Part shown: positions 1,891-64,000 of the stretch, piece after piece
Numbering within the stretch: position 1 is the first letter of the stretch
Layout: every line of letters starts with the position of its first letter
Source of the DNA: Limnephilus marmoratus
Taxonomy: Eukaryota; Arthropoda; Insecta; Trichoptera; Limnephilidae
Assembly: GCA_917880885.1 (NCBI GenBank)
Contig: OU862910.1
Span: 19,604,710 to 19,668,709 of the forward strand
Reading direction: 5' to 3'
DNA length: 64,000 nt
Made by a program: the position numbers and the translations under genes
The notes under the pieces: model-generated
What the model saw: only the letters and a program-made list of their open reading frames with translations
Told to the model about the DNA's origin: nothing
Databases searched by the model: none

Positions 1891-3370
1891 CCTAATGATC
1901 AGAATCAAAAAAATAAACATTTCTTTCACACATTTTTAACGATATTCGTAGTTTGTGAAAATACCCCATTAGTATTACAAATGAAGAATCCCGAAAATTG
2001 TGTAAGGACATACAGAAATTAGACTATTTTGTGTAACGCGGAAGTGGGTGGTAGAACGAGTCGGGAAAGCCCCGACAGAAACGGCATGATCAAAGCCTGG
2101 TCGGTGATGCCAAGCGTCGGAATAACACAAGAAAATGTTAGAGACGAATTACGAATGTGAATGAAGCATGGAGTGTGTGTGTGCCAATATAAAGTTGTGT
2201 TAAGCATATATTCCGGATCAAAACGATTTCTCTTTTACAATCTAATACTAAATACCTAAGATATCTGTAGGTACAATCTGTAATAATTCAAATACTAGGC
2301 TAGGAAGCTAGTACCTACTTACCTAATCTTATTAGAATTTCCTTTAGGTACACTAATATTTATTATGGCAACAAATTCCACTTTATTAATTTAACGCATG
2401 GCTTTCATGTTGACGTGGATTTTTGTTGACGTAGACAGCACGCCTGAGCCCTTTTCAATGAATAATAGGTATTATTATTTACAGTTTAAAAAATAATCAA
2501 ATTTAGAACAAACTTTGGGTATACGTAACCGAATGCCCAGAAATTAATTGTTTGGTCGAATTCATTAAGAAATTAATCAAATTTGGGAACACGTAACATC
2601 ACGCTCAGATATTCATTATTTGGTCGAATTTTCTATAAATGTGTATATTATGTTTGAGCCAAAGCGTCGAACAAGACGTTCTAAATATTGTTATCAGTGT
2701 CTTATCATAGTATCACTATCAGGCTTTGACACAAATGTGCACAAAGCATCATTAAACCCTTTGATGTGAATAAAGTCAACAGTAAAAGCTAGTTTTATCT
2801 GAAACATAACAAGTTAAAACTGACAGATAAGGCAAATAAAGTAGGAATTTCTTCAATTCCTTGAGAATTGTTAATTTCTAGGTACCTACCTAACAAAATG
2901 TACCTAAAGTAATCTACTAAGCTTTTCCAAAGGTTTTTTTTTGAGAATCACTTAGAAATTGAATATACCTACCTACTGATGCTAGGTCAGGGTTTTCCAA
3001 ACTTGGTGATATAACACACCCACTTTTTAAAAGACGTAAGCGACAATCGCAACAAATCACCCGAACAACCCATCTAGTTTTAGGATGGGTTATTTCATTG
3101 AATTTGAACAATTAATCAAATTTCAAAGATAATATTCAAGTTTTGTGAAAGTCCTGGCCAAGTTTTGTTAAAATCCAAGTAGAAACAACCGTCCAATGAT
3201 TTAATAACAACAGAACTATCATAAGTTGAATATTAACTTGAATGTTCAAGTGGCCTGACAGATCTATGAGTTATTTGTTGCACTTGATAACCTGTGATAA
3301 CCTGGCCGTCATATAAATCCAGTTATTTTGCCGACAAATCTTTATCTAAAGTTCGTTGAGATTATGTATA
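1891..3370. other. Non-coding, no clear feature
   Basis: Only AT-rich sequence is apparent. Positions 2030-2215 are less AT-rich and could be a decayed repeat, but neither strand gives a recognisable protein. Short tracts of TAGGTACCTA-type words occur, as elsewhere in the window. Confidence 0.5.
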
Positions 3371-3748
3371 CTAAGGGTTCCCGACCTTTTTGAGGTTAGG
3401 AGCTACTTTTCCCCTAGTTTTCACGGATCAACTTCTAACAAGAATCTTATAAGATTGTTTGCCTTTCCTTTTTTGGTTCTTCAGAACAGTGACCATAAAA
3501 CCATTTTCCTAACAAAATTAATTTGTCCTGCGATCGGGACATTTTTTTTCCATGGTAGTAGGTAAATTTAAAATGTGGAACTAATTTTTTTTTTTCAAAA
3601 TTCACAATTGAAATCTGCGATCGATACGTTGGGAAGCCTTGATGTATGACATTTTTATATGCTAAAGGTGATTTTTTGTTTCGATTCTGTACATTTTCAG
3701 TGACACAACTAAACTTAGCTCAGCGCACTACAGGTTGGGAACTACTGA
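3371..3748. mobile_element. Degenerate hAT-like MITE
   Basis: The left end reads AAGGGTTCCCGACCTTTTT. The right end, reversed, reads CAGTAGTTCCCAACCTG. These share the GGTTCCCAACCT-type terminal inverted repeat known from Charlie/hAT-type MITEs in many animals. I do not see a matching 8-bp target-site duplication, so the copy is old or its edges are misplaced. The interior of about 340 bp is AT-rich and non-coding. Assignment to hAT rests on the terminal motif alone. Confidence 0.4.
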
Positions 3749-5857
3749 ATATTCTAAAATCCATCTTATAGGCAAATGCTAAAATTAACAAAAATACCAA
3801 ACTATTTTCGAGTATTCATAATTCTACATTCATATTTCGGATTCTAATAAAGACCATCTGATTATATACCCACCTATCAAAACACTGTTGACAATCCTTC
3901 CATCTACATTTATCTAAAATGTCGACTTTGACCTTTAGAAAAAAATTTAAGTTTGTTTTTGTCGTACCTATCAGCAACTCTAATTTATGCCTATTTATAT
4001 TATCAAAATCATCGTTAGAGACAGGTAATTTATCGATAAGCATCGTAATGAGGCTTTAATTTTACAAACACACTCGTAACCTGCAGACAGTTTTTATGAC
4101 TTATGTTTTATACTAGATACTATTTCTTATCTAATAATCCATTTAGGATCTGAAATTAAAATACTTATTTAAATTTTATGTCAAATTAAATGTCACGTTA
4201 CGTAGCCAAAAATTTACGATACTAATAAATATATTTTTAATAAATAATGCATGAATATGGTAAATGCAAACGAAGCAAATTGCATGTTAATTCACTTTTA
4301 TCATGTTCAAAGATGCACAATTACATCATCGGAATATTTGCCAAAAATAATTCTTGCAAACTGTTGACAAAATTGCAATGAGATATTGATTGTGTAATCA
4401 TTTAAGCAGTTTTTGTGTAGACAAAGGAAAGACAAAAACCGGAAAGCGTCTACCTAGTTCTAGCTGGTAATTCAGTTCACTAATGATGTTCAATAAATAG
4501 TTAGTTTTGACGTCGATAGAGAGCGCCACATATAATGATAAATTCTTCTTATTCATTCTTCAAGAATTAACTGGCAAAGTAATATTGGTTGAACCGGTTT
4601 TAGTTACGCCGTCTCTCTCTCTCTCTCGCTAAAGCCAATTAATTTTAGACTAACCACTTGTTGCGAATATCACGGGGTTTTCCCTTTCACCTTCTTAAAA
4701 TTGAACCAAAACAACATATTTACACATTAACTACCTAGGTATCTACGTAAATATTTAAAATATGGCACAAACAACAATAAGTCAAGTAAGGCTAAACTTA
4801 TTTTCGACAACTATCACCGTTGGTTTTTCCATCTTAGCAAAACAACAAGTGTTGCAAGATTAATATGGCCATTGAGCTTTACTTGGAAGTTTAGTTTTTT
4901 TTTAACCTGAAATAATTAAATGAACTATTGAAATAGAACATCAGTTCTCTAAGGAAGTTTTAATTCTGCTCGTGAATGATACGGTTGTATCGAAACCGGT
5001 CGCGGAAAAATTAAATTTAAGTAACAAATGTACATTTAATAAAACTCTTCAAAAAACAAAATGTCTAGAAATTGTTACATAGTTAATGCCCAAGAAATAC
5101 AAAAAACTCTAAGGAAGCGTTACTAACAGTGCAAGCACGAGTTTGTTTAGAATTTGATATTGAAAGCGAAGTCCAACAGATACGTATGAACTGTGTACGA
5201 CAAAGTTGAAGGACAATAAACTGAGTGCAACAAATTATTAACACGGGCAAGGTATGTTTCTATAGATCTAACTTTAAAGTTAGTTAAACTAACATTTATT
5301 ACATGCATATTTGATGCACGAACCAAAAAAAAAAATTTGCCCATGGCGTCAAAAAAATGCTCGCAGCTTTTGCAATCTTAAGTGTATATTTAATATACAT
5401 ATAAGCTATTTTTTAAGATGTTGGTCTTCGAATATGTATTAAGTCAAAAATAAAACAATACCCCGTGCTATTTGTAGGTATTCTTGGGCAAAGCCGGGTA
5501 GTGAAGCTACGTTAAAATCATGAGGTAGATGCACCTTACACCTTCAAGAATAAATTACTTATGTGACAGGCCATGCGAGTTAATTATGATGTAAAAAGAA
5601 GCAAAATATCTAATACGAGTATTTTATCTACTGAAAAAGAAATAAGAAAATATGTTAAAAAAATATATAGAAAATATATGACCCATGTCTATGAAATTCT
5701 TATACAAAAGTTTGGACTGATCTGGTGGTTTGGACGAATACGTTTACATCTTTACTGGGTTCATCGTCATCATCATCACAAGTTTATTACAGGATATGTC
5801 CTCAATGGGTTCCACTAGTGGCCCTGTTACAGTATATTACAGGTGGCTTCTATTTAC
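3749..5857. other. Non-coding DNA, presumably intron
   Basis: This lies on the 3' side of the minus-strand carbonic anhydrase exon. I looked for the next exon, which would carry the zinc-binding HxH region on the minus strand, and found nothing like it, so the intron should run beyond the window edge. A short TC microsatellite sits at about 4615-4628. At 5484-5510 a TGGGCAAAGCCGGGTAGTGA motif resembles the hairpin-like end of Helitron-type repeats common in insects. That second call is weak. Confidence 0.5.
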
Positions 5858-6612: not shown

Positions 6613-6655
6613 TATAATAATAATAATTAATTAATTAATAATAATTAATAATAAT
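6613..6655. repeat. TAA/TTAA microsatellite at the 5' junction of the R4/Dong-like element
   Basis: A run of TAA, TAAT and TTAA units directly precedes the first retrotransposon-like codons. Dong, an R4-clade element first described from Bombyx, is known to insert in TAA repeats, so this may be the target site rather than chance AT-richness. Confidence 0.5.
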
Positions 6656-7496
6656 GTATAATATTATGTCCTTTTGGAATACAGATTTGCTAGTTAATTT
6701 AAAAGGTAAGAAAATAGTAGTACCGGGCATTTCAATAAAAAGAGGGATTTTTCAAGGAGACTCACTGAGCCCTCTTTGGTTTTGCTTAGCATTGAATCCC
6801 CTTTCTAAAATGTTAATTAAAAGCAAGTTTGGAATAAAAATTAAGGGTAATACAAGAGAGAGTAGTATAGTTTCACATCTATTATATATGGATGATATAA
6901 AATTATTTTCAAATTCTGAATCAAATTTAGAGAAAATGATTAAGGTAGTTAAAATTTTTTCAGATGATATTAAAATGACTTTTGGTTTAGATAAATGTAA
7001 AACTATCCATATAGAGAAAGGCAAAATTGTAGATGGAGACGAGGGTATATTTAGAAATTTCAAAATTCAAAGTATGAAAGGGGATGAGGTTTATAAATAT
7101 TTAGGATACCCGCAATCGAATAGATTAGATCACACTAGTATTAAAAATGATATTAGGATTAAATTTCAAACTAGGATCAGAAAAATTTTAAAATGCAATC
7201 TATCTGCTAAAAATTTAGTAAAAGCAATAAATACTTGGGCAATACCTCTACTAACGTACTCATTTGGCATAATTAAATGGTCCAATACAGATTTAGATAG
7301 TTTAGAACGATTAATTAGAACTACGTTAACAAAATTTAATTGCCATCATCCAAATTCAGCTATAGAACGAATTAATTTACCTAGAAATTTAGGAGGTAGA
7401 GGTGTAGTCAAAATAACATCTTTGAAACACAATCAGGTAGAAATGCTTAGAAATTTTTTCCATAGGAAAGCTATAGCTCAGAAATGCACAAAATAA
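6654..7496 (+). pseudogene. R4/Dong-like reverse transcriptase, partial (first frame)
   Basis: About 280 codons encode the palm and thumb part of a non-LTR reverse transcriptase. GIFQGDSLSPLWF (residues 31-43) is the RT motif before the active site, and YMDD (78-81), followed by IKLF, is the catalytic box. A FGLDKCKT segment and a YLGYPQS segment follow, as in R4/Dong and R2 relatives. The first catalytic Asp (motif A) and the finger region are missing, so the protein cannot be active. Similarity begins at about 6664; the ATG is probably just in flanking sequence. It ends in KAIAQKCTK and a stop, where homologous sequence continues in another frame at 7484. Confidence 0.75.
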
Positions 7497-8440
7497 TTTG
7501 CAAGGCAGATAGAAATATTACACCTTTAAATTTATATGACGAGAATGCCAACATTCTTATAAATACTAACCAGGAATTATTAGATTCCTGGTCAAATAAA
7601 ATTATTCACGCAAAACACTTCAATTATCTTAACCAAACGTATGTTGACAAACTTTCGTCAAACAAATGGTTGAGTATTGGAGAGTTGAGCGCAGAAATAG
7701 AAGGATTTATGCTTGCCATTCAAGATAGAGTCATTAATACTAAAAATTATAGAAAGCATATAATCAAAGATATAAATCAAATTGATGATTTATGTAGAAA
7801 ATGTTTGGCTTTTCCCGAAACTATAGAACATATTATATCGGGATGTTCTATATTAGCGCCTTCCGAGTATACATTTAGGCACAATCAGGTTTTAAAAATA
7901 ATTCACCAAAGTTTGGTAATTAAACATAACTTGATTGATTGCCGTAATGTAGTACCTTATTATGAATATGAACCAAATTCATTTATAGAAAATGAATTTT
8001 ATAAAATATATTATGATAAAACTATACTAACAGACAGAACAATTAGTCATAATAGACCTGATATAGTTTTACATGACAAAATTAAAAAAATAACTTATAT
8101 CATTGATGTAGCTATTCCAAATTCCTGTAATATTCAAAAAACTGTTTCTGAAAAAATTAGAAAATACACAGATTTAGGAAATGAGATTAAAAGAATTTGG
8201 CATTCTCGGACTATAAAAATATTACCATTTGTTATTTCGGCCACTGGCATAATACCTAGGAATCTGATTCAAAATTTGAGCATATTAGATTTGTCAAAGA
8301 ATTTGTATATAAAAATGCAAAAAGCAGTAATTTTAAATACATGTAGGATTACAAAAGATTTTTTAAATATTTATATTGAGGGATCAGTAGGATTTATAGG
8401 TTCAATTAGAAATGCCACAGAGCCGAACCCTCTGATATGA
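7484..8440 (+). pseudogene. R4/Dong-like CCHC and restriction-like endonuclease region (second frame)
   Basis: About 318 codons continue the element after a frameshift. Residues 104-121 form C-x2-C-x8-H-x4-C, the single zinc-knuckle-like motif that precedes the endonuclease in R2/R4 proteins. RPD (191-193) and IIDVA (Asp208), with KY at 227-228, match the PD...D...K pattern of the restriction-like endonuclease that nicks the target. A W-H-S-R-T...VISATG..P tail matches the C-terminus of this group. The endonuclease half is intact with no internal stop. The stop is TGA at 8438. With RT in another frame and truncated, I treat it as a pseudogene. Confidence 0.75.
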
Positions 8441-14373: not shown

Positions 14374-14519
14374 CTAGTATCCTGTATCCTGTCGGCGCCT
14401 GCCAGTTGTTCATAAATAGTACTGCGAAGCGCACGTATGAGGCATGAGTTATCGGTATGTTTAATGTTTTTTTTGTGTGGAGACCCTGGTTTTACTTTAA
14501 TTGAGGTTGGATTTGGAAT

Positions 14520-15911
14520 GTGAACTTTATGTTGGAAAAGGATAGTAGTGCAGATTATAGTAATACACACATCGAATCTGGATTCCAGAAACGGCTTAAG
14601 ACTGCGGCAGCGTTCATTGATCTCTCTGCGGCTTACGACACGGTGTGGCACAAAGGCCTCCTTTTCAAGCTCTACGACACCATAGAGGATGGCAACACAG
14701 TACGACTTATTGAGCAACTACTAACTGGCCGTACTTTCAGGGTTTTTCTAGGAGGGCTAAAAAGCAAAAAAATGCACCTGAATAATGGCCTTGCCCAAGG
14801 CTCAGTGCTGGCCCCATCACTCTTCAACATCTATACTCGAGATCTTCCTCACACAGAAGGCAGAAAATTTGCTTACGCAGATGACTTCGCCATCACAGTC
14901 CAAGCCAAAACCCTCAATGCAGTAGAAGAGATCCTTTATTCTGACCTCAAGGCTATGGAAGAATTTTTCCTCAATTGGCGACTAAAGCCAAATGGGTCGA
15001 AAACAGTTGTGACAGCTTTCCATCTCAGTAATTCACAGGCAAACGCAAAACTCTGTGTTCAGTTTGATGGAAAAAATATTTACCATGACCCCCATCCCCG
15101 CTATCTTGGAATAACTTTGGACAGGAGCCTGAATTACCGGAAACACATGGAAACAGTGGGCAAAAAAACCAGGACAAGACTAAACTTAGTCAATAAGCTG
15201 GCTGGTACTAGCTGGGGATGCGACGCCAACACGCTCAGAACGGCATCCATTGCCCTGGTTTTCTCAGCAGCTGAATACTGTGCTCCAGTATGGGCCAGAA
15301 GCGTCCACACTTCCATGGTCGACGTTCAGCTTAATGCCACAATGCGAACCATCAGCGGAACCTTAAAATCGACTCCTCTTCCTTGGCTCCCCGTACTTGC
15401 AAATATAACCCCGCCAAATATCAGGCGAGAGATTGCAACACTGAGGGAATACAAGAAGGCGCTGCAAAAAAGCGAAATACCCTTGCACGATGATGTCGTT
15501 TCTCACCCGGCATGCCGCTTAAAGTCTCGAAAACCCTTCTGGACGGAAGGAGAAAGACTTCTTCGAACACCTCTCACCCCAGAAGATAGGTGGAAGCTTG
15601 AGTGGCAATCAGCCAACGTCAAAAACGCCGATCTCGTGCAAGACCCCACTGAGAGACAGCCTGGGTTCTCATTGCCTCGCAAACTCTGGACTGCCATCAA
15701 TAGAATAAGGTGCTCCCATAGCCGTTGTGCTCACATGATGCATAGATGGGGCCTTAAAGAGTCGGCGACGTGTGAATGCGGTGCGGTGCAGACCACCGAA
15801 CATGTGGTCAACGAATGCCCGCTCCATTCATTCCCCGGCGGGATTTATGAGGTCCACAGGGCAATGCCTGAGGCCCTAGACTGGCTCGCAGACCTAGATG
15901 TCCCCCTCTGA
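14520..15911 (+). pseudogene. Jockey/I-group LINE reverse transcriptase fragment
   Basis: The 463-codon frame holds most of a LINE reverse transcriptase: FIDLSAAYDTV (32-42, motif A), GLAQGSVLAPSLFN (90-103) and YADD (119-122, catalytic). WRLKPNGSKT and YLGITLDRSLNY follow, with AEYCAPVW in the thumb/connection and a C-terminal Cys/His segment CECG...TEH...NEC. The C-terminus WLADLDVPL then stop, followed by an (AAG)n tail near 15930-15946, looks like the natural 3' end. Similarity begins only at about residue 12, so the endonuclease and ORF1 are missing: a 5'-truncated insertion. The frame is still open, so insertion or hitch-hiking in the hAT is fairly recent. The clade beyond the Jockey/I group is uncertain. 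Confidence 0.8.
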
Positions 15912-23796: not shown

Positions 23797-24840
23797 TCAT
23801 CATCATCATCTGTGGCTCTACAACCCAGGTCGGGTCTTGGCCTCCAGCAGAGCCTGCCTCCATGACTGTCGGTGTTGTGCTGCGTTGCGCCAGTTTCGGA
23901 TGCCGATGGTGCTTGCATCCTTCACCACTCCATCCAGCCATCGAAGCTTTGGTCTTCCAACTCTTCTCCGACCCCCAGATGCACCATCCATAATTCGCTT
24001 TGGGATATCTCCTTCGCTCATTCTCTGGATATGTCCAGCCCACCTGAGTCTTCCAGTTTTGATTTCCTTGGAGATATTAGGGTCCTCGTAAAGATCGTAT
24101 AGCTCCTGGTTGTATCTGATACGCCATTCTCCATTATCACAGACTGGGCCGTAAATCCTTCGCAGCACCTTCCTTTCAAAACTTTCTAGGGCTCCTTCAT
24201 CACCCTTACTGATTGTCCAACATTCCGAACCATACATAAGAACAGGTCGTATAAGGGTCTTGTAAAGCAGGACTTTAGTTCTTCTGGTAAGGTGGCGAGA
24301 TTTCATATGCTTCTGTAGCCCAAAGTAGTATCGATTTGCAGCTACTATTCTTCTTTTGATTTCGCTGGATACATTGTTGTCATTTGTCACCATAGTACCG
24401 AGATATACAAACTCGTTGACAGTTTCAAATGTATAATTATCTATCTGTATACTTGGTGGTTTCTGGCGTCCATGTACGGGCATATATTTTGTCTTCCCCT
24501 CGTTGATGACCAATCCCATGTTCCTTGCCGACGTAGCTAAGCTTTTAAACGCCGATTTTAGTTCATATTCTGAGCGTGCGATGATATCTATATCGTCAGC
24601 ATAAGCAAGGAGCTGAACAGACTTGTTAAAAATATGGCCTGTGGTTTGTATACCTGCATTTCGGATGGCCTTTTCCAGCGCTAAATTGAATAAAATGCAG
24701 GCAAGTGCATCTCCTTGTCTTAGTCCATTGAAGGTCTTTAGGGTGTCTGACAGATCCTGTTGTATTCTGACTCGGCACTCAACATTAGACATTGTGAGCC
24801 TTACTAAGTTTACCAGTTTTCTTGGGATATTAAAAAATCT
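23797..24840 (-). mobile_element. 5'-truncated RTE-like retrotransposon
   Basis: The minus-strand element ends in (GATGAT)n at 23797-23810, immediately after the stop codon and a GGTTGTAGAGCCACA-type end, as in RTE-clade elements that have tiny 3' UTRs and short repeat tails. The 5' end is lost within RT near 24840. No target-site duplication was found. Confidence 0.75.
23818..24840 (-). pseudogene. RTE-like reverse transcriptase, C-terminal part
   Basis: The frame is open from RFFNIPRKLVNLVRLTM to the TAG at 23818; the first Met is at 24792. Counting from it, GLRQGDALACILFN (23-36) is the pre-catalytic RT motif and YADD (64-67) the active-site box. FVYLGTMVTN, LIRPVLMYGSECW and RLRWAGHIQRM follow in the usual RTE order, ending in WRQALLEAKTRPGL. 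The endonuclease and motif A are missing, so the product would be inactive. There is no internal stop, pointing to a moderately young truncated insertion. Confidence 0.8.
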
Positions 24841-25148
24841 GCAATATGGCTTATTATTGACAGAAAGAAGCTTTTTTATCTGAATAATGCTTGTAAACGT
24901 CAGTCACGTGGAAAGATAAGTCCGAAAAGGTAGTAAAAATGGAGGCTGATAATGTCAATTGTCCACATTCCTAACCTCGCTCAGCTGATAGCTCCTCAAG
25001 TCTCGAACATACACATGTGTCATGTCCTCGTGACTATATTTTTTATCTTGATATTGAGATAACATTATTATCAATTATGTGTTTTATGATGCAAAAATAA
25101 TAAACATTTTGTTTCACACTCATCAGTTGTAGCAGCTTTTTACCGCAG

Positions 25149-34780: not shown

Positions 34781-35051
34781 TTTAATTAAATGAAGACAAT
34801 ATAAGCGAAACTCAATCGAAAATCTGAAAACAGAAAAATCAGAAAAAGATATTGACACATCTGGGACTCGAACCCAGGACCTCTCGCTTACCGGGCGAAC
34901 GCGCTAACCGCGGTGGCGCAGTGGTTAGCGCGTTCGCCCGGTAAGCGAGAGGTCCTGGGTTCGAGTCCCAGATGTGTCAATATCTTTTTCTGATTTTTCT
35001 GTTTTCAGATTTTCGATTGAGTTTCGCTTATATTGTCTTCATTTAATTAAA
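34781..35051. repeat. Perfect 129-bp-arm palindrome carrying tRNA-like sequence
   Basis: Left arm 34781-34909 and right arm 34923-35051 are complementary along 129 nt with no mismatch that I can find. They are separated by only 13 nt. Each arm holds the 3' two-thirds of a tRNA-like sequence, so two B-boxes, GGTTCGAGTCC, point in opposite directions. The centre completes the D-arm on the plus strand only. Poly-T-rich DNA (about 34708-34740) lies just to the left. Perfect arms suggest recent formation or ongoing gene conversion. Confidence 0.88.
34912..34980 (+). pseudogene. tRNA-Thr-like sequence without acceptor pairing
   Basis: A D-arm (GCGC/GCGC around AGTGGTTA), an anticodon arm (TTCGC/GCGAG) with loop CCGGTAA, a 5-nt variable loop and a T-arm (CTGGG-TTCGAGT-CCCAG) all fold correctly. 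The A-box TGGCGCAGTGG and B-box GGTTCGAGTCC are intact. The loop would read GGU, a Thr anticodon, but position 33 is C instead of U. The 5' strand of the acceptor does not pair with ATGTGTC, and the cognate strand is inside the opposite palindrome arm. I therefore call a tRNA-derived SINE head or pseudogene, not a working tRNA. Confidence 0.65.
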
Positions 35052-52825: not shown

Positions 52826-53446
52826 ATCCAAGAAGAGTACAGAAGAGCCAAGAATGGGCGGTAAGAAGTAAGAAGACTCAAAAAGAGTCAAGAAGAACCA
52901 AGAGGAGAAAATGCGAGTAAAGAAGAGCCAATGGAAACAAGGCGTGCGGAAAGGGTCCCAGGGGGGGGGAGATGTAAGCAGAGTCACGAGTCACTAGAAG
53001 AGACAAGTAGAGATAAGAAGAGACAAGAAGAACCAAGAAAAGACGAGAAGATCCCGGAAGAGACAAGAAGACATAAGAAGAATCATAAAGAGACAAGAAG
53101 ATCCGAGAAAAGAGCAGAAGAGACGAGACGATTCAAGAAGAGGCAAGAAGAGACAAAATACCAAAGGAGCCAAGAAGAGGCAAGTAGATCGAAGAAAAAC
53201 CAAGAAGAGATGAGAAGATCTCCGGAGAGACAAGATGACTCAAGAAGAAGCAAGAAGAGACAAGAAGAGCCGAGAAGATTCAAGAAGAGACAGAATACCA
53301 GAAGAGCCAAGAAGAAGCAAGAAGATCCAAGAAGCAAGAAGAGACCAGAAGATCCCAGAAGTCACAAGAAGAAACAAGAAGAGACAACAAAAGCCAAAGC
53401 GGCAAGAAGAGCCAAGAAAGGCAAGAAGAGACACGAAGGAACAAGG

Positions 53447-53479
<33 letters not shown>

Positions 53480-53496
53480 AGAAGATCCATGAAGAT
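52826..53496. repeat. Purine-rich AGACAAGAAG minisatellite
   Basis: Hundreds of bases of diverged 9-10-bp units such as AGACAAGAAG, AGCCAAGAAG and AGATCCGAGAAG run along the plus strand, ending with an A30 run (53447-53476) and GAAGATCC units. A 200-codon open frame rich in Lys, Arg and Glu (52931-53533) is an effect of the repeat. The array is interrupted by the LTR retrotransposon and resumes at 63703. Confidence 0.85.
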
Positions 53497-55315
53497 TGTG
53501 ATGAACCTGCTTTGTCAGATGGTTGGCGAATAATTTTTTTTTATATAACAAATATTACTGAAAGCGGAATTAAAGGGGTCTGAAGCAATTGGGGCTGGCC
53601 TGTCGAGGAAGGATTTATCTACTAGGGTAACGAAAGCGTTCAACAAATCAGAATAAGTATCGAACCATATTAGGGGCGTCCCATCGATCACAGGAAAGGG
53701 CGAAATCTGATGCCTCTTGGTGGATTTAGAACAAAATATTGTCCCACGTTTTAGGGGATGGTAAATTTTAAGTGGAAGGAACCACTTCGCTCGAGTCATA
53801 AATCGGCGAGAAAAAGGCTCAGGTTTCAGATTGGATTTTGGGTTATTTAGATAACGCAGATGAAAAATGTGTTCGATCCCTTGTATTTGAGTGGGTTGTC
53901 AAGATCGATACATTAAAGCTGAATTTATCTCTTGATTTTACGTGTGCGAGATTCAAGAAAGTAATTAGTGAAACTAATAAAAATTAATGTCCTGTCAGAA
54001 CTTTAAATTATGTGCAAATTCAAGTATTTTTCCTGAAGTGCAGTTCGCATAACTGTGAGAATTTATGAGGGATAAATTAATGTAAAAAACGTTGGAAGGT
54101 AGGTTTGACATTGGACCTACAAGATGGAAATAGGGAATAAGGGACAGACATCCTTGAGTCGGAGAAGAGGCTGGTCGTGGAATTTCGAAAAGAGTGTTGT
54201 GGCTCGCTGTGGACTTAGCGAAAACGAGAAGTGTTTGTTAAAACTAACTTCAGTGAAGATTTTGCATTTATGGTGTAAGATAAAGAAGTTCGGTGTTGTG
54301 TTACTTAATAAAGATAATCGTTGTTAAAATTCGCGATTGCCGCGCGATAAACATTTAAATTTGGGAATAGAGACTTATTAAAGTATTGGACTCCTGTCAT
54401 AATTAATAATAATAACAATAATATCCTTAGTGAACGAGATCTGCGAGATAATAATAAAAAAATACAGACTCAGTGTTAATGCTTACAGTGGTTTTAAAAT
54501 TACATAAGTACAAAAAGGGATATCAACTGAAAACCCTAAATACGAACACTAGATAAGTGAAGAATATAAAACGGTTATAATATAGGTTTTCCCAATAATC
54601 CGCCACTGGACTAGCCGTGTTGAGGCCGTAAATTATAAGTCGACTTATAATTCTCGTAAACAGGCCTACATTGAAATGTAATCACATAATAGATTGGTTA
54701 CATAAATAATAATTGCAACTTATCATTCATTATGTAGAGACAAAAATATAAAAATAAATATTTACCTTGAGTAACGACAATGGTCCCGGATCATAATAAT
54801 AATCCCGTAGAAAACATTCCATCCTTCATTTAAGGACAGTGCAACGAATAAAATAATGATAATAATAAAAATAGTGGAAAAATGGTGTTAATTCGGTTGA
54901 GAAGTTTTAGCCAGAATAATTAGAGTTTAGATAATAAATGTACAGTCAGTCGAAAGCTAGAAATGCAGTTTTGAAAGGAGGCTTTTTAAATATAAAGTAG
55001 GTCTGACGTTACCGTGTATAGTTAGGGGGGGAGGTTGGGAGTTATGATTGCGCAATAGTCTGGTAAGGGGCCACAGGACGTGAGAGAAGATCTTCCCACA
55101 ATGCAGCTTAGAGAAAAAGGGGTTTTAAAATTACAGTACCTACATTAAGACCTTGTACGATGATAAGGAAAGCAAGTAGGGAGTTTGATCATTTATAGGG
55201 AGGACGTGTGATTAAGACGCGGAGTTGCGTTTACCCTACCGGGAGTCGCGGTTTTAGCAACCATGTTCTTGGTAAGTCAAATAACTTTAACCTATATTAC
55301 AGGACCTCACTGATT

Positions 55316-55744
55316 GCAGGATGGAGTGAAGAGAACGCTGACCATGTATTATTTAACTGTACCAGCCTTGAATGAACTGATGTTTTGGTTACTCCAGAAT
55401 AGGTACCAGGCATAATTCACAGATGTTATCAACAAGAACAGCTACCTTCCCTCGGCAGACAACTGATGCCGAGCTAGACCAATACCTGGCTCTCGCCCAG
55501 TGGGCTCGGGTTCGATTCCCGGTACCGGAACCTATAAATCTATAATTGAATTAGGTACATGTACTTGTTTGCAGAGTGACGTGAATAGAACGCGAATCTT
55601 GGACAGTTAATTGCATGAGTGTCTGTATCGAATAGATTGATGTACTTTTTATCCCAGAATAGGTACTAGGCGTATTTCACAGATGTTACCAGTCACCACC
55701 CTGGACAGTGACCTTTTCTCGGCACTCGGCTGATGCCGAGCTGA
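55316..55744. repeat. Diverged internal duplication in the LTR
   Basis: Units at about 55316-55472 and 55571-55744 share GAGTGA.G.GAA.AGAACGC, CCAGAATAGGTACNAGGC, TTCACAGATGTTA and TGATGCCGAGCT in the same order. The tRNA-Glu-like segment lies between them. The same arrangement recurs in the 3' LTR at 61625-62053. Confidence 0.65.
55485..55530 (+). pseudogene. tRNA-Glu-like 3' half inside the LTR
   Basis: CCTGG, loop CTCTCGC and CCAG form an anticodon arm with CUC, followed by a T-arm around GGGTTCGATTCCC and CGGTACCGGAA. This closely resembles the 3' half of animal tRNA-Glu. The 5' half and acceptor pairing are not evident. The B-box GGTTCGATTCC is perfect. An identical copy lies at 61794-61839. 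It is not the primer-binding site and reads in the sense orientation. Confidence 0.6.
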
Positions 55745-57391
55745 CACAAAAAATGAACCTGACACAGAGAATACAGTCAACCAAATGGGGAGCGTCTCGA
55801 GAGTACGACATATCAAATTGGAGGCGATTACCTGCAACCCGAACAGACATCTTTAGACAAGGGAGCAGAAGAGCAGAATCACGATATAAAATATGAAACA
55901 AATAAAACTAACAGGTACTCTGCTGAATTCCTACTTCTTGAATTACGCTTTTTAAGTTCTTCATGATTGACGAATGTGTTGGTGACACCGAGACTACACA
56001 TTATGTGAGAAATTGGTGGTCGAGTGGTAAGGGTCCTTCCCACATTGTCATGTTAGGAAGGAGGAGGGTTGCCCACCATAGACTGATCGGGTCTCGCGAG
56101 GTGCCGGAAGCAATTCCCTTTCGCGGGACTATGTCGAGCGAATGGGCGCAACAGGGTCGTATGAAATGAGATGCCAATGGTAAGACAGGGCATGGTTCGC
56201 AGACGGAGGCGTTTGGCCGAAAGCATCTCGCGTTGCCTGCAAGGTAGTATGGAAATGCGCCAACAGGTCATCTGTGGGACGGGTTCCTGTAGCATCATCA
56301 CATTTTTTAGTCCTGTCGACCCAGAAGCAAACGTAATGCCCACAAGGTGAGGATTATGTCAGCTCCTGGAGGTGGAGTGTAACGCTAGGTCGGTCACGTG
56401 GGAGGACGGATCTGCCTGTCACAAGCTTACCCCACTTGTACCGTGAATAGAGTCGTGATAAGGGACGAAATAGATTACCCCTTCTAGAGCCAGTAAAGTA
56501 GTTCCGGAGGTGTTCGATACTGGAGTTGTCTGGGAAAGGTTTGAAGGCATGCCGTTCTTCTTCTGTTATGGCGGGGTCCGGGTATCTGGTTTATCGTCAA
56601 GAGATTTTCCGGGTGCCATGGGTATAGCCTCATCATGCATTGGTCGGAGGGTCGTGTTCTGAGAGCTGGCCACCTAGTCAACTTGGTCAAGTGGAGGAGC
56701 CAGTATTTGCTTGCAAAAAATTCCTCTCCATCACCATCCATTCCATCCTCTATCCCGTCTTTATACTTCCATCCTAGGTATAAGTTTGTGTTTACTAACA
56801 ACAGAACATATTATCACGATTATGTATAGCATATAGCCATGGAGAGCGGTGCAGAGAATCGCCAATTATCCACATGAAATGAAACATTCCAGGTACGTAC
56901 ATTAAAACTTATTAGGAAGTAGAGGGGGAGAGATCAATTTTATAGCCTAGCGAGAGTAATAACGACAGTGCTCATTATGTGAATATTGGAGCAGTGTATA
57001 TCATTAGAATCATAGCGGGGACAAGTTTAGGACAATCTAGACAGGGCGTGTCCTTCAGACGTCTAAGAGATACAGAGTAATTCTTCCACACCTTACCTAA
57101 AAGAACCGAAAGTTACCACAAAAGACATTAAATACCTATCCTAGATGTTCTAGGTGCTCCGAAACAAAAAATTACACAACGTGGAGAAAAGGGTTTATTG
57201 TAAGAATTTCCCGGAAAACTACCTTTTACTGTGTTCAGTCACAGGGGTGGGAAAAATAAGTCATGATTCAAAACATTAATGGCGAATCATTCAGGGTACG
57301 AGAGTAAGATCTACCAACCGGAGATCTGAACGCACGAGAAGAAGAAATATTTTAAAAGTTTTCATTAGGGGGGGGGTTGAACCATCACAAG

Positions 57392-57406
57392 TGGTGCCGA
57401 GAGACC
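57392..57406 (+). promoter_or_regulatory. Primer-binding site of the LTR element
   Basis: TGGTGCCGAGAGACC starts 2 nt after the 5' LTR. TGG pairs with the CCA end of a tRNA, and TGGTGCCGAG-like sites are common PBSs of LTR retroelements. I did not identify the matching tRNA. Confidence 0.75.
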
Positions 57407-58179
57407 AGGAGGTGAGGTTTTAAAAGCTGGAGGAATTTCAATGTATCTTAGTGCAATTCGAAAGATAGTTACGAATTATTACGTAAGAAGAAAAAAATAA
57501 ACAAATAAAATAAATAAGTATGCTAGAAAAAGAATATATTTAAACAAATCAGTAGCCAAGAATTTTAAATCTGCAGATGAAGGTCATTGCCTCTTAGACG
57601 GGTAGATAAAATAAATAGGAATTTTGTAAACAAAACATAAACGAAAGTTTACAACCACGACGGTTTGAATGTAGGTCATTGCCAAGATGCAACAAAAAAA
57701 GGTACAGGGTGCACATCATAAAGATCGAAGATTTATGACCTTGCGTTTGCCTACCATAACTAGGTCAGGAATGCGACGCCCGGGGTGGAAAAAAAAATAC
57801 TACGGTTAATGACCCGGGACAAGATAAACAAACTTTAGTTAAAATTTCACGACACAAAAAAAAGGGTAGGACAAATTTGAAAACCCCACACAAAGGAGCT
57901 ATAAGTAGGTCATTAAACCAAGAACCAAGTAGGTACGGAAATAGTGCGGTATGCGATTAATGTAAAACTGAATAGAATAAAACATTAATAAAACTAACGA
58001 GTAGGTAAACGTAAAGATAAATAGGTAAGCGCAAAATAAATAAATGAATAAAACAAATAAGAGCAACTGAAATTATGTTCGCGCGGAATAAAAGGGAACA
58101 TACGCGTATGTGTATGAGGACGCGTATACATACATATGTGTTTCTGTGTGAAGAACAAACAATTTCATTTTATGAAACG

Positions 58180-58420
58180 GGATTTTAGTGGGTTAGGGAG
58201 GGGATGAGACCAACCAAATGGTTACTACATTCCACGTGTTTAGTTTAGAACAAAAAAAAATTCATGTTAAAGGAATAAGGAGTTTTTATGGCTTAGGGAG
58301 GGGGCGGAACCAATCGGTTGGTTATTAAATTCAAGCATGGTTAGGTTAGAACAAATTCATGTTTAAAGGCGATAAAAGGAATTTTTTAGGCTTAGGGAGG
58401 AAACGTAATCAGCAAAGAGC
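58180..58420 (+). repeat. Three tandem units of about 99 bp
   Basis: Units begin near 58180, 58279 and 58378 with GG(A)NTTTTTNGGCTTAGGGAGG-type sequence, continuing through ACCAAN.NGGTTGGTTA and AACAAATTCATGTTTAAAGG. The third is incomplete. Confidence 0.65.
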
Positions 58421-58491
58421 CTTTAGTGGATTTAGACATGTTCGGGTCACACTAAACTGGTAGGGGAGATATTGAATCAAATGGGTTGGGA

Positions 58492-58686
58492 TTTTTTTTT
58501 TATAAAAGAAAGACAAACATTCCCGGGTTACGAATAACCTAACAATGTTTGAAAATCTCCTACTACCACCACAGAAAGCCGAAAATGTTGCTTGTGTTGT
58601 GATGGAGGACTTAGCCAGCCGAGGAATTGAACACGCGACGCCCAGATGGGATCCAAGCGCTATGCCCACTCAGCCACCGACCAATC
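58492..58686 (-). mobile_element. tRNA-derived SINE (family A), copy 2, inside the LTR element
   Basis: The minus strand has A-box TGGCTGAGTGG, B-box-like GTGTTCAATTCC, then the GGTGGTAGTAGGAGATTTTC body and CCCGGGAATGTTTGTCTTTC end with an A-tail. It carries an extra TCGGCTGGCTAAG-like segment after the B-box compared with 22000-22176. It shows that SINE sequence has become part of the element's interior. Confidence 0.7.
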
Positions 58687-59797
58687 ATCAGTGAGAGTTG
58701 CGCCGTACGTCAATTAAAATAAAATTTTGAACATTATAAGTAGGGTATTTAGAGGTATTCACCATTCGATATGAAGCAGCGAGAAAGTATGTCATGTATT
58801 AGGGCAGATAGTTCTTCGATGATTCATTTCAGTGTCGATTCACCGTAGCGAGTATAATTTTGGTTAGTTGACCTACAATAAGGTTTGAAAATTCTTTAAA
58901 CTGGGGTGACCGGACAACAAACCAGTAGAAACAATGATGCAATCGGGCCAACATTGAGTAGTCCTGTTCATACACTGTTTGTTATATTGAATGGAGACGG
59001 TCTAGCGCACGACAAAAACAAAAAATTATATTGATAGGTAATAATGTCTTTTCTAAGTTTATCAATGGGAAAAAAGGTTAGTTTATTTTGAAGGGAGACC
59101 GTAGAGATAGCCTAACGAAGGAAAAAAACAATCAAAGAAAAAAAAGGAGGGCATAAATTGTTTTGAAATGACGTGTTTCATATCAAGATAATTAGAATTC
59201 ATTAAATAAACCAAATATGAAACAAAAAGATAGTTAAGTTTTAATCAGCACACCAGATTTTGTTGTTTTATGACAAGAAACAAAGAGAGGGACGGTCACA
59301 CTCGTAAAATTGCGCACGAGATAGCAAAAAATTAAGATAACCGATAACAGACATTAACAAAAAAATACACTACCCTATGTCGGAATAGCGAAGAATGCAG
59401 GAAAAAAAAATGGTTACAGGAACGGTCGGCGGGCGTAAACAGATGTAAGGGTGAGGCATAAGTAGGTAAGACCGATGGAGGCAGGGCCGAATTGGAAAGA
59501 CGCTCAAGAGTTATTTTAAAGAAAATAAATAAATTAATTAAATACAGTAACCGTCGGGTTGTGGGACAGTGGAACGTTTGTGTAAAGTTAAATTGTTGAA
59601 AGAAAAACGGAGGAAGAGAAGGGGGTAGAACGGACAGTTAACCTGCGAGGGATAGGGATACACAACATTTAGGTACGACAAATTTTGGGAAAGAGAAAAC
59701 ACGGAGGGGAGGGGGAAACAAACCAAAACCTGTATTTAGAAATGACTCCACTGACCAACCACTAATAGCGTGTTTTGACACTGGAGATAATTTCTAT

Positions 59798-59805
59798 AGG
59801 GAGGC
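59798..59805 (+). promoter_or_regulatory. Candidate polypurine tract
   Basis: AGGGAGG followed by one C abuts the 3' LTR. The tract is short, but its position is where plus-strand priming is required. Confidence 0.55.
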
Positions 59806-62800
59806 TGTGATGAACCTGCTTTGTCAGATGGTTGGCGAATAATTTTTTTTTATATAACAAATATTACTGAAAGCGGAATTAAAGGGGTCTGAAGCAATTG
59901 GGGCTGGCCTGTCGAGGAAGGATTTATCTACTAGGGTAACGAAAGCGTTCAACAAATCAGAATAAGTATCGAACCATATTAGGGGCGTCCCATCGATCAC
60001 AGGAAAGGGCGAAATCTGATGCCTCTTGGTGGATTTAGAACAAAATATTGTCCCACGTTTTAGGGGATGGTAAATTTTAAGTGGAAGGAACCACTTCGCT
60101 CGAGTCATAAATCGGCGAGAAAAAGGCTCAGGTTTCAGATTGGATTTTGGGTTATTTAGATAACGCAGATGAAAAATGTGTTCGATCCCTTGTATTTGAG
60201 TGGGTTGTCAAGATCGATACATTAAAGCTGAATTTATCTCTTGATTTTACGTGTGCGAGATTCAAGAAAGTAATTAGTGAAACTAATAAAAATTAATGTC
60301 CTGTCAGAACTTTAAATTATGTGCAAATTCAAGTATTTTTCCTGAAGTGCAGTTCGCATAACTGTGAGAATTTATGAGGGATAAATTAATGTAAAAAACG
60401 TTGGAAGGTAGGTTTGACATTGGACCTACAAGATGGAAATAGGGAATAAGGGACAGACATCCTTGAGTCGGAGAAGAGGCTGGTCGTGGAATTTCGAAAA
60501 GAGTGTTGTGGCTCGCTGTGGACTTAGCGAAAACGAGAAGTGTTTGTTAAAACTAACTTCAGTGAAGATTTTGCATTTATGGTGTAAGATAAAGAAGTTC
60601 GGTGTTGTGTTACTTAATAAAGATAATCGTTGTTAAAATTCGCGATTGCCGCGCGATAAACATTTAAATTTGGGAATAGAGACTTATTAAAGTATTGGAC
60701 TCCTGTCATAATTAATAATAATAACAATAATATCCTTAGTGAACGAGATCTGCGAGATAATAATAAAAAAATACAGACTCAGTGTTAATGCTTACAGTGG
60801 TTTTAAAATTACATAAGTACAAAAAGGGATATCAACTGAAAACCCTAAATACGAACACTAGATAAGTGAAGAATATAAAACGGTTATAATATAGGTTTTC
60901 CCAATAATCCGCCACTGGACTAGCCGTGTTGAGGCCGTAAATTATAAGTCGACTTATAATTCTCGTAAACAGGCCTACATTGAAATGTAATCACATAATA
61001 GATTGGTTACATAAATAATAATTGCAACTTATCATTCATTATGTAGAGACAAAAATATAAAAATAAATATTTACCTTGAGTAACGACAATGGTCCCGGAT
61101 CATAATAATAATCCCGTAGAAAACATTCCATCCTTCATTTAAGGACAGTGCAACGAATAAAATAATGATAATAATAAAAATAGTGGAAAAATGGTGTTAA
61201 TTCGGTTGAGAAGTTTTAGCCAGAATAATTAGAGTTTAGATAATAAATGTACAGTCAGTCGAAAGCTAGAAATGCAGTTTTGAAAGGAGGCTTTTTAAAT
61301 ATAAAGTAGGTCTGACGTTACCGTGTATAGTTAGGGGGGGAGGTTGGTAGTTATGATTGCGCAATAGTCTGGTAAGGGGCCACAGGACGTGAGAGAAGAT
61401 CTTCCCACAATGCAGCTTAGAGAAAAAGGGGTTTTAAAATTACAGTACCTACATTAAGACCTTGTACGATGATAAGGAAAGCAAGTAGGGAGTTTGATCA
61501 TTTATAGGGAGGACGTGTGATTAAGACGCGGAGTTGCGTTTACCCTACCGGGAGTCGCGGTTTTAGCAACCATGTTCTTGGTAAGTCAAATAACTTTAAC
61601 CTATATTACAGGACCTCACTGATTGCAGGATGGAGTGAAGAGAACGCTGACCATGTATTATTTAACTGTACCAGCCTTGAATGAACTGATGTTTTGGTTA
61701 CTCCAGAATAGGTACCAGGCATAATTCACAGATGTTATCAACAAGAACAGCTACCTTCCCTCGGCAGACAACTGATGCCGAGCTAGACCAATACCTGGCT
61801 CTCGCCCAGTGGGCTCGGGTTCGATTCCCGGTACCGGAACCTATAAATCTATAATTGAATTAGGTACATGTACTTGTTTGCAGAGTGACGTGAATAGAAC
61901 GCGAATCTTGGACAGTTAATTGCATGAGTGTCTGTATCGAATAGATTGATGTACTTTTTATCCCAGAATAGGTACTAGGCGTATTTCACAGATGTTACCA
62001 GTCACCACCCTGGACAGTGACCTTTTCTCGGCACTCGGCTGATGCCGAGCTGACACAAAAAATGAACCTGACACAGAGAATACAGTCAACCAAATGGGGA
62101 GCGTCTCGAGAGTACGACATATCAAATTGGAGGCGATTACCTGCAACCCGAACAGACATCTTTAGACAAGGGAGCAGAAGAGCAGAATCACGATATAAAA
62201 TATGAAACAAATAAAACTAACAGGTACTCTGCTGAATTCCTACTTCTTGAATTACGCTTTTTAAGTTCTTCATGATTGACGAATGTGTTGGTGACACCGA
62301 GACTACACATTATGTGAGAAATTGGTGGTCGAGTGGTAAGGGTCCTTCCCACATTGTCATGTTAGGAAGGAGGAGGGTTGCCCACCATAGACTGATCGGG
62401 TCTCGCGAGGTGCCGGAAGCAATTCCCTTTCGCGGGACTATGTCGAGCGAATGGGCGCAACAGGGTCGTATGAAATGAGATGCCAATGGTAAGACAGGGC
62501 ATGGTTCGCAGACGGAGGCGTTTGGCCGAAAGCATCTCGCGTTGCCTGCAAGGTAGTATGGAAATGCGCCAACAGGTCATCTGTGGGACGGGTTCCTGTA
62601 GCATCATCACATTTTTTAGTCCTGTCGACCCAGAAGCAAACGTAATGCCCACAAGGTGAGGATTATGTCAGCTCCTGGAGGTGGAGTGTAACGCTAGGTC
62701 GGTCACGTGGGAGGACGGATCTGCCTGTCACAAGCTTACCCCACTTGTACCGTGAATAGAGTCGTGATAAGGGACGAAATAGATTACCCCTTCTAGAGCC

Positions 62801-63698
62801 AGTAAAGTAGTTCCGGAGGTGTTCGATACTGGAGTTGTCTGGGAAAGGTTTGAAGGCATGCCGTTCTTCTTCTGTTATGGCGGGGTCCGGGTATCTGGTT
62901 TATCGTCAAGAGATTTTCCGGGTGCCATGGGTATAGCCTCATCATGCATTGGTCGGAGGGTCGTGTTCTGAGAGCTGGCCACCTAGTCAACTTGGTCAAG
63001 TGGAGGAGCCAGTATTTGCTTGCAAAAAATTCCTCTCCATCACCATCCATTCCATCCTCTATCCCGTCTTTATACTTCCATCCTAGGTATAAGTTTGTGT
63101 TTACTAACAACAGAACATATTATCACGATTATGTATAGCATATAGCCATGGAGAGCGGTGCAGAGAATCGCCAATTATCCACATGAAATGAAACATTCCA
63201 GGTACGTACATTAAAACTTATTAGGAAGTAGAGGGGGAGAGATCAATTTTATAGCCTAGCGAGAGTAATAACGACAGTGCTCATTATGTGAATATTGGAG
63301 CAGTGTATATCATTAGAATCATAGCGGGGACAAGTTTAGGACAATCTAGACAGGGCGTGTCCTTCAGACGTCTAAGAGATACAGAGTAATTCTTCCACAC
63401 CTTACCTAAAAGAACCGAAAGTTACCACAAAAGACATTAAATACCTATCCTAGATGTTCTAGGTGCTCCGAAACAAAAAATTACACAACGTGGAGAAAAG
63501 GGTTTATTGTAAGAATTTCCCGGAAAACTACCTTTTACTGTGTTCAGTCACAGGGGTGGGAAAAATAAGTCATGATTCAAAACATTAATGGCGAATCATT
63601 CAGGGTACGAGAGTAAGATCTACCAACCGGAGATCTGAACGCACGAGAAGAAGAAATATTTTAAAAGTTTTCATTAGGGGGGGGGTTGAACCATCACA
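59806..63698 (+). repeat. 3' LTR (3,893 bp)
   Basis: Sequence and all short frames match the 5' LTR, from TGTGATGAACC to GAACCATCACA; the only difference noted is T at 61348. Near-identity implies a very recent insertion, recent gene conversion, or a mistaken assembly copy. The tRNA-Glu-like segment recurs at 61794-61839. Confidence 0.85.
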
Positions 63699-63702
63699 AG
63701 AT

Positions 63703-63775
63703 GCAAGTGACAAGAAGAGTCAAGAAGATCCAAAAGAGCCGAGAAGAGGCAAGAAGAAGGAAGATACATAGAAAG
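63703..63775. repeat. Purine minisatellite resumes after the insertion
   Basis: GCAAGTGACAAGAAGAGTC and further AAGAAG-type units continue the array seen at 52826-53492, showing that the LTR element inserted into it. Confidence 0.75.
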
Positions 63776-63789
63776 GGGGGAAAAAACAA

Positions 63790-64000
63790 CGCTCAATCCG
63801 TTCCTTTATTCCTGCCCATCCTTAATTCCAATATTGGCTTATTAGGTTGCCATGTATACCGGTCGATTAAACTCCAACCTCCTTCCCATCCTCAGAGCAT
63901 GTGTTCCAGTCCTAACAAATCAGTGCCCCCTGGTGTACCGGTCTCACCGGGACAGGAGTACTCCTGGCTGGGGTGGTACAATCGTATCGTATCGTATATC
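63790..64000 (+). repeat. Probable non-LTR retroposon 3' end with (ATCGT)n tail
   Basis: A GC-richer segment ends GGAGTACTCCTGGCTGGGG, then TGGTACA and (ATCGT)n up to the window edge. The core matches the LINE-like tail at 1776-1890. CACCGGGACAGG-type sequence precedes it. No coding frame is visible in 210 bp. The right boundary may lie beyond the window. Confidence 0.5.

Follow-up and report, generated by a model that had tools for sequence, protein, structure and literature searches.

The window analysed here, a 64,000-nucleotide stretch of contig OU862910.1 of the caddisfly Limnephilus marmoratus, carries near its end a 10.2-kb element (positions 53497-63698) bounded by two nearly identical long terminal repeats (LTRs). 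With a probability of roughly 0.87, this element is a young insertion of a non-autonomous Ty3/gypsy LTR retrotransposon of the large retrotransposon derivative (LARD) type, mobilised in trans by a coding sister subfamily. Judging from the parts that the two kinds of element have in common, the helper identified in the same genome very probably performs this mobilisation. The initial annotation, made from the window's letters alone, had proposed an insect LARD-like family mobilised in trans. This proposal is favoured by the Trichoptera host, the dispersed family and the coding relative described below, from which mobilisation itself is inferred.

Structure of the element

Alignment of positions 53001-64000 against themselves with blastn gives one direct repeat, 3,895 columns long, in which a single position mismatches. 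The final two bases of this repeat (AG) match by coincidence, because AGAT follows the 3' copy and AGTGGTGCC follows the 5' copy. The LTRs are therefore 3,893 bp each and occupy positions 53497-57389 and 59806-63698 of the forward strand. They differ by one transversion at LTR position 1543, with no gaps and no difference in the 3' tip. Each LTR begins with TGTGATG and ends with CATCACA, and AGAT flanks the element on either outer side as a 4-bp target-site duplication (53493-53496 and 63699-63702). The self-alignment confirmed the repeat length, the ends and the flanking AGAT as first annotated; near-identity over 3.9 kb does not arise by chance. Comparison of LTRs divides the 5' LTR into a U3 part of the kind seen in the non-coding copies that were read (LTR positions 45-2084; 53541-55580, forward strand) and a 3' half that is common to the LTRs of the helper at 87-95% (LTR positions 2085-3893; 55581-57389, forward strand).

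The interior (57390-59805, forward strand) is 2,416 bp long. It begins with AG followed by TGGTGCCGAGAGACCAGGAG (57392-57411), a primer binding site of the tRNA-His type that has AGA for T when compared with the exact 18-nt complement. TGGTGCCGAG is found 2 nt inside the 5' LTR boundary, as originally described. A 42-nt leader patch of the helper type lies at 57483-57524 on the forward strand, and a dispersed SINE-like (short interspersed nuclear element) repeat lies at 58492-58686 on the reverse strand, its orientation having been judged by eye. The interior terminates in ATTTCTATAGGGAGGC (59790-59805, forward strand), which contains a 7-base purine run followed by C. The purine tract reported before the 3' LTR is thus present, but weaker than stated. 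The 16 bases of this short AGGGAGGC polypurine region are identical in 12 of the 12 copies printed, and its function is putative.

The longest open reading frame wholly inside the 10.2-kb element is at most 105 amino acids long; a frame of 200 amino acids enters it from the purine-rich flank. When the first frame and the Pol of the helper were used as tblastn queries, no credible gag or pol remnant was found in the interior (best E 0.79) or in the LTR (0 matches), in line with the absence of gag and pol frames noted at the outset. Rfam detected no tRNA-like sequence at E 1 or better in the 5' LTR or the interior. A purine-rich imperfect repeat of the AAGAAGAGAC type surrounds the element on both sides (52996-53438 and 63711-63757).

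Copies in the genome and their age

The genome searched is a 1.63-Gb assembly of 67 contigs, and the copies are named by contig (C1, C2 and so on), the copy in the window being WIN. The COX1 of contig C67 agrees at 100% over 446 amino acids with two Limnephilus records and with a large Trichoptera cluster, which places the host among the caddisflies and probably within Limnephilidae. The first look gave 313 candidates for a 1-kb LTR query, 56 for the interior start and 57 for the interior end. Forty candidates per query were scored and the copies were drawn from the best matches, which makes them a non-random sample. Exact patterns occur genome-wide at 44 LTR/primer-site junctions, a few of which belong to helpers, and at 276 LTR starts. 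Diverged sites escape these patterns; the junctions in helper copies C25 and C27 (TGTTACCG), for example, are outside the 44. The search for further copies that had been proposed as a check was thus productive: the flanks differ from copy to copy, and other copies have the same repeat ends and the same interior start as WIN.

The first 100 LTR starts listed include 97 on C1-C9, and these form 20 pairs and 57 singles. Two of the 20 pairs are one element with a doubled start. Solo or broken LTRs in this set outnumber paired elements by about 3:1. The spacing of the paired elements is 12 kb, as in the helpers, in 2 of 19 and 2.7-8.1 kb in the remaining 17. On C30, C17 and C14, judging from how the matches are spaced, LTR and interior appear to alternate in tandem arrays (LTR-interior-LTR-interior).

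Perfect 4-bp target duplications flank all 16 copies of which both ends were read, and their sequences differ between copies. Eleven of these copies are non-coding (WIN, C16, C29, C3, C17a, C1a, C12, C2, C17b, C1b and C18) and five are coding (C17, C25, C4, C19 and C27). C5b and C30 stand outside this count (one end not read; tandem).

The LTRs of individual copies are very similar to each other. For the 12 copies whose LTRs were aligned over their full length, the Kimura two-parameter divergence of the pair ranges from 0 to 0.0021, and five further pairs that were partly read (C18, C4, C19, C27 and C5b) are 99.93-100% identical. Within-copy pairs are thus 99.8-100% identical, whereas long blocks of other copies are up to ~10% off the WIN LTR. 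Relative to the latter, C2 lacks the same ~1.9 kb from both of its LTRs, which are mutually identical, as LTR re-synthesis predicts. The insect mutation rate is near 2.9e-9 per site per generation, and the caddisfly rate may differ. At this rate, one difference in 3,893 positions corresponds to ~44,000 generations since WIN inserted, and the Poisson upper bound is ~250,000. The near-identity of the LTRs had been taken as a sign of current activity; recent insertion is borne out, and current activity is plausible. No empty insertion site was seen when flanks were compared with the fetched loci of this genome.

Two features of the interior bear on the history of the non-coding copies. A 195-bp SINE-like insert occupies one interior site in WIN, C16, C18 and C1b, which are at different places in the genome, and it was therefore carried along by copying. 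The site is empty in C29, C2, C5b, one non-coding copy on C4 and coding C19; the C12 locus does not cover it. Furthermore, the non-coding copies have two interior forms. Positions 470-760 of the WIN interior are present in 7 of the 12 other non-coding copies and absent in four (C29, C12, C17b and C1b), while C3 does not allow scoring. Because of these two forms, the loss of gag-pol may have occurred more than once or stepwise.

The coding relative and probable helper

Of 11,715 first-look Pol candidates, 38 were scored. Six match at 98-100%, 23 at 88-91% and nine at 65%. No stop interrupts the matched part in 34 of the 38, and the six copies at 98-100% are uninterrupted over ~1,217 amino acids. 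Five coding elements, measuring ~7 kb or more from the primer site to the 3' interior, were fetched in separate pieces. Their first frame measures up to 333 amino acids and overlaps the Pol frame, which is up to 1,217 amino acids long and is split between loci in three of the five. The first frame had no Pfam match in the one scanned and is called Gag by position only. The Pol that was scanned whole comprises G-patch, protease, reverse transcriptase, RNase H, H2C2 zinc-binding and integrase domains in the Ty3/gypsy order. Its best solved relative is the Ty3 Gag-Pol (E 3e-85). Among named insect Pols, those of Lepidoptera are nearest, at 43-50%, and the nearest unnamed one is at 81%.

The G-patch precedes the protease in the helper Pol (L022:2448-6098), and many of the listed homologues also have a G-patch. 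Literature searches for a G-patch in gypsy elements of insects, or for tRNA-His as a primer, yielded nothing useful. Another Ty3/gypsy element, with an open Pol-containing frame of 1,281 amino acids (L021:5156-8998, reverse strand), splits the coding copy on C27.

The LTRs of the helper are ~4.5 kb long. Four of them were compared with the WIN LTR and have in common with it the first 44-50 bp (at 86-91%) and the 3' 1.7-1.8 kb (at 87-95%). Of the U3 core, only ~150 bp at ~70% and short pieces at the 3' end of the core can be aligned. In the interiors, the first ~450 bases, including the leader with the primer-site region, are common to both kinds, as are several blocks from after the pol stop to the 3' end (the last few hundred bases). 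The sixth close Pol copy, on C6, has the same parts as the five fetched elements according to pattern matches. A coding relative with common LTR ends, primer-site region and interior ends, the search for which had also been proposed, therefore exists in this genome. The simplest history would be that a helper-like element lost gag-pol and that its U3 subsequently diverged or was replaced. A further element with the helper-type U3, at C2:5471059-5479253, in which the LTR start is doubled and the spacing is 8.1 kb, is perhaps a partial deletion derivative.

Recombination between coding and non-coding copies

Coding and non-coding copies recombine, as is shown by conflicting trees for the LTR half and the leader and by the exact 42-nt patch that the two kinds share. 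The exchange would take place during reverse transcription. In the tree of the 3' LTR half (16 copies: 11 non-coding and 5 coding), the coding copies are found in three places among the non-coding ones, and a single clade of coding copies is rejected (approximately unbiased (AU) test, p 8e-41). In the leader tree (16 copies: 12 non-coding and 4 coding), the coding copies group together, with a support of 81/82 that is not firm. The leader rejects the pairing of coding C25 with non-coding C17b (p 6e-14), although the same pair is strongly joined in the LTR half. The two pair-wise clade tests run on these trees were chosen after a first tree had been seen. C2, whose LTR is without the part concerned, was left out of the LTR-half tree, and the interrupted C27 was left out of the leader tree.

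The patch was delimited with 63 diagnostic leader columns, at which coding C17 and C25 share an allele that is absent from the 11 other non-coding copies. The leader of WIN is coding-type at 15 of these columns, non-coding type at 47 and has a private base at one. All 15 coding-type columns (8 base and 7 gap columns) are located between columns 96 and 173, and two columns in this interval are not coding-type. The same rule applied to the 11 other non-coding copies gives 0 of 48 columns in ten of them and 1 of 49 in C2. The exact 42-nt sequence occurs four times genome-wide: in WIN and in coding C17, C25 and C27.

The U3 types may also be exchanged between the two kinds, because the element at C3:1856371-1862480 combines a helper-type U3 and a 6.1-kb spacing with an interior end that is 96% similar to that of WIN, as judged from match positions only.

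The primer site and the LTR tips

The 3' end of tRNA-His, GTTCGACTCCTGGTCACGGCA, is found at 12 loci, and ARAGORN calls a tRNA-His in both loci that were looked at. The caddisfly tRNA-His gene has GACT in its T-loop; a pattern with a different T-loop matched nothing. The expected tRNA-His site TGGTGCCGTGACCAGGAG, which is the exact 18-nt complement, is present in 5 of the 44 exact junctions, including that of coding C17. Three of these five belong to one array on C14. In the other junctions the T is replaced by AGA (37 junctions) or CGA (2 junctions), and all but one of them, 38 of 39, also have TGT for TGG. WIN alone has TGG with AGA. The non-matching junctions include those of helper copies C4 and C19, whose LTRs are near-identical, and such primer sites in young copies are a puzzle. 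A primer tRNA ending in TCTCGGCA was considered and rejected: this ending is found at two loci, neither of which is a tRNA according to ARAGORN or Rfam, and one of which resembles a tRNA-His fragment.

The 12 LTR pairs aligned in full have 41 differing columns, 27 of which are in the last 30 columns, or ~1% of the LTR length. Six end-trimming artefact columns (C1b, coding C17 and coding C25) are excluded from the 41. Some of the tip columns are differences in the length of a G-run, which could be assembly error. Beyond G-run length, the last 25 bases of the 5' and 3' LTRs differ in C12 (L036/L037), C16 (L024/L025) and C1a (L034/L035), and these variants resemble alleles of other copies.

In standard reverse transcription, the end of the tRNA is copied into each new element. 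Since 39 of the 44 junctions deviate at the same place and the LTR-pair differences cluster at the tips, the LTR/primer-site junction might instead be inherited from the genomic RNA and not rebuilt from tRNA and strong-stop DNA, a suggestion that we regard as doubtful. Minus-strand synthesis would then continue past the primer site and into a second co-packaged RNA whose 5' end is still intact, and this would explain both the deviant sites and the tips.

Proposed mechanism and alternatives

The element would be transcribed from its own LTR. Its RNA would retain the primer site, the 5' leader, the polypurine region and the LTR tips, all of which are also present in the coding sister subfamily. 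Gag and Pol of the helper would package this RNA and reverse-transcribe it, and the helper integrase would insert the copy and create the 4-bp target duplication that is seen around the copies. During reverse transcription, the polymerase would switch between co-packaged helper and non-coding RNAs. Through such template switching, those parts of the parasite that are recognised would stay in step with the corresponding parts of the helper.

Several observations weigh against this mechanism. The middle of U3, the presumed promoter region, is not common to the helpers, and co-expression of the two kinds therefore remains an assumption. The non-coding copies, given their two interior forms, may have more than one origin. 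The 42-nt patch is in an A-rich, poorly aligning stretch, and 7 of its 15 diagnostic columns are gaps. Most of the exact junctions (39 of 44) are not the exact complement of tRNA-His. Finally, the two LTRs of C12, C16 and C1a differ at their 3' tips, and chromosomal gene conversion could also produce mosaics.

Gene conversion between chromosomal copies, in place of template switching in helper particles, is the alternative that survives best, although it is unlikely. The tree conflict and the 42-nt patch fit either process equally, and conversion of one LTR could explain the differences in the last 25 bases of C12, C16 and C1a. However, larger private variants, such as the deletion in C2, are identical in both LTRs of a copy and therefore fit exchange before or during reverse transcription. 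Furthermore, the compared copies are mostly on different chromosomes.

There is a smaller chance that the non-coding copies are mobilised by another coding subfamily, for example by the Pol group at 88-91% (23 of the 38 scored) or that at 65% (9 of 38). Pols of these groups are abundant, and in 28 of the 32 the matched part is free of stops. Nevertheless, it is the 98% group that shares the LTR tips, the leader, the interior ends and the patch of WIN. The sister groups are represented by one element, a 90% Pol copy (L055), and the 9 kb downstream of it match the window element only over 193 bp at 80%. The 90% group was also considered as the source of the non-coding U3, which was not found downstream of L055.

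Slightly less probable still is that the non-coding copies are dead deletion products of the coding element, of several origins, which do not multiply themselves. Both interior ends of the helper are kept and the gag-pol between them is gone, as would be the case after deletion; the element at C2:5471059-5479253 and the two interior forms are also consistent with this explanation. On the other hand, a distinct U3 is common, at least partly, to the 12 non-coding copies read, and four copies have the SINE-like insert at one site. Those copies therefore descend from each other. The 12-kb helper spacing is limited to 2 of the 19 paired elements on C1-C9, the other 17 being shorter, and the non-coding LTR pairs are as young as those of the helper.

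A segmental duplication or assembly error, in which the 3.9-kb copies would not be LTRs, might be suspected from a single locus taken alone, but is rejected as next to impossible by the 44 exact junctions dispersed genome-wide with differing flanks and by the perfect target duplications, varying by copy, at 16 of 16 copies.

Relation to known elements

The barley LARDs studied by Kalendar et al. in 2004 reportedly have LTRs of ~4.4 kb and a centre of 3.5 kb, and are said to contain priming sites and to have an affinity to gypsy elements. The initial annotation called LTRs that exceed the interior unusual; this feature of the window element is real, but less odd than supposed, as it is said to be typical of LARDs.

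LARDs are large non-coding LTR elements that depend on others (PMC7215508, PMC6696364). They had been described in the initial annotation as occurring mainly in plants, but insect LARD annotations already exist for bumblebees (PMC4414376) and Drosophila (PMC12694884, PMC9005704), and one LARD-like element is mentioned for Culex (PMC3286476). No title or abstract opening describing LARDs in caddisflies was found among the papers listed by searches of open-licence literature.

Barley LARDs of the Sukkula type resemble the caddisfly element in their large LTRs, a centre free of protein genes and presumed mobilisation in trans (PMC7215508). The present case is different in its insect host and in having a likely coding helper with shared LTR parts in the same genome. 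It also differs in that a conserved RNA structure is not supported for the leader, the part analysed: in 16 copies, the covariation term is -2.04 of -51.93 and 1 of 87 predicted pairs is compensatory.

In wheat, the non-coding partners in the Angela and Wilma/Sabrina/WHAM systems are tied to autonomous elements via their LTRs and the primer site, and mobilisation by partners with LTR exchange is reported (PMC9744471). The LTR and interior trees of Angela differ, as they do here, and gene conversion or template switching has been proposed (PMC9744471). The caddisfly case differs from these in its small copy numbers, in a U3 core that the two kinds do not have in common, and in that its helper was deduced from common parts and from a patch inside one copy.

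Animal terminal-repeat retrotransposons in miniature (TRIMs), such as PbTRIM of the harvester ant (PMC3532108) and Helenus, which has 4-bp duplications (PMC10886601), are likewise non-coding, trans-dependent LTR elements. They are miniature, however, whereas the caddisfly element is 10.2 kb long. The non-coding LTR elements of Culex are also from an insect and without coding sequence, but have LTRs of 208-315 bp in the relevant table rows, internal tandem repeats and, according to the passages on them, no known master copy (PMC3286476). The caddisfly element has a known likely helper.

The anatomy and the proposed mechanism are thus of a known kind; the addition is an example from an animal, with a probable helper and sequence traces of exchange. 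Large non-coding LTR elements are frequently presumed to move in trans although no master copy is known. In the present case, one chromosome-level insect genome contains a young copy without coding sequence, its likely helper, of which several copies are uninterrupted, and footprints of recombination between the two, and helper use, co-packaging and template switching become directly testable in an animal. The family also offers one contributor to repeat growth in the caddisfly genome.

Other features of the window and the genome

Pieces of reverse transcriptase frames at window positions 6645-8437, 14505-15908 and 23821-24903 are probably remnants of LINEs (long interspersed nuclear elements). 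RVT_1 was found in three of the four window frames scanned. Rfam reports a tRNA match at 34907-34979 (42.4 bits) that ARAGORN, run with a bacterial setting, does not call. Sequence directly adjoining and overlapping this match recurs beside coding C4, and the match may thus belong to a dispersed repeat.

A copy of COX1 in the chromosome-sized C28 (C28:25770511-25771848) has a score equal to that of the mitochondrial contig. This copy reflects either a recent insertion of mitochondrial DNA into the nuclear genome or a join made during assembly.

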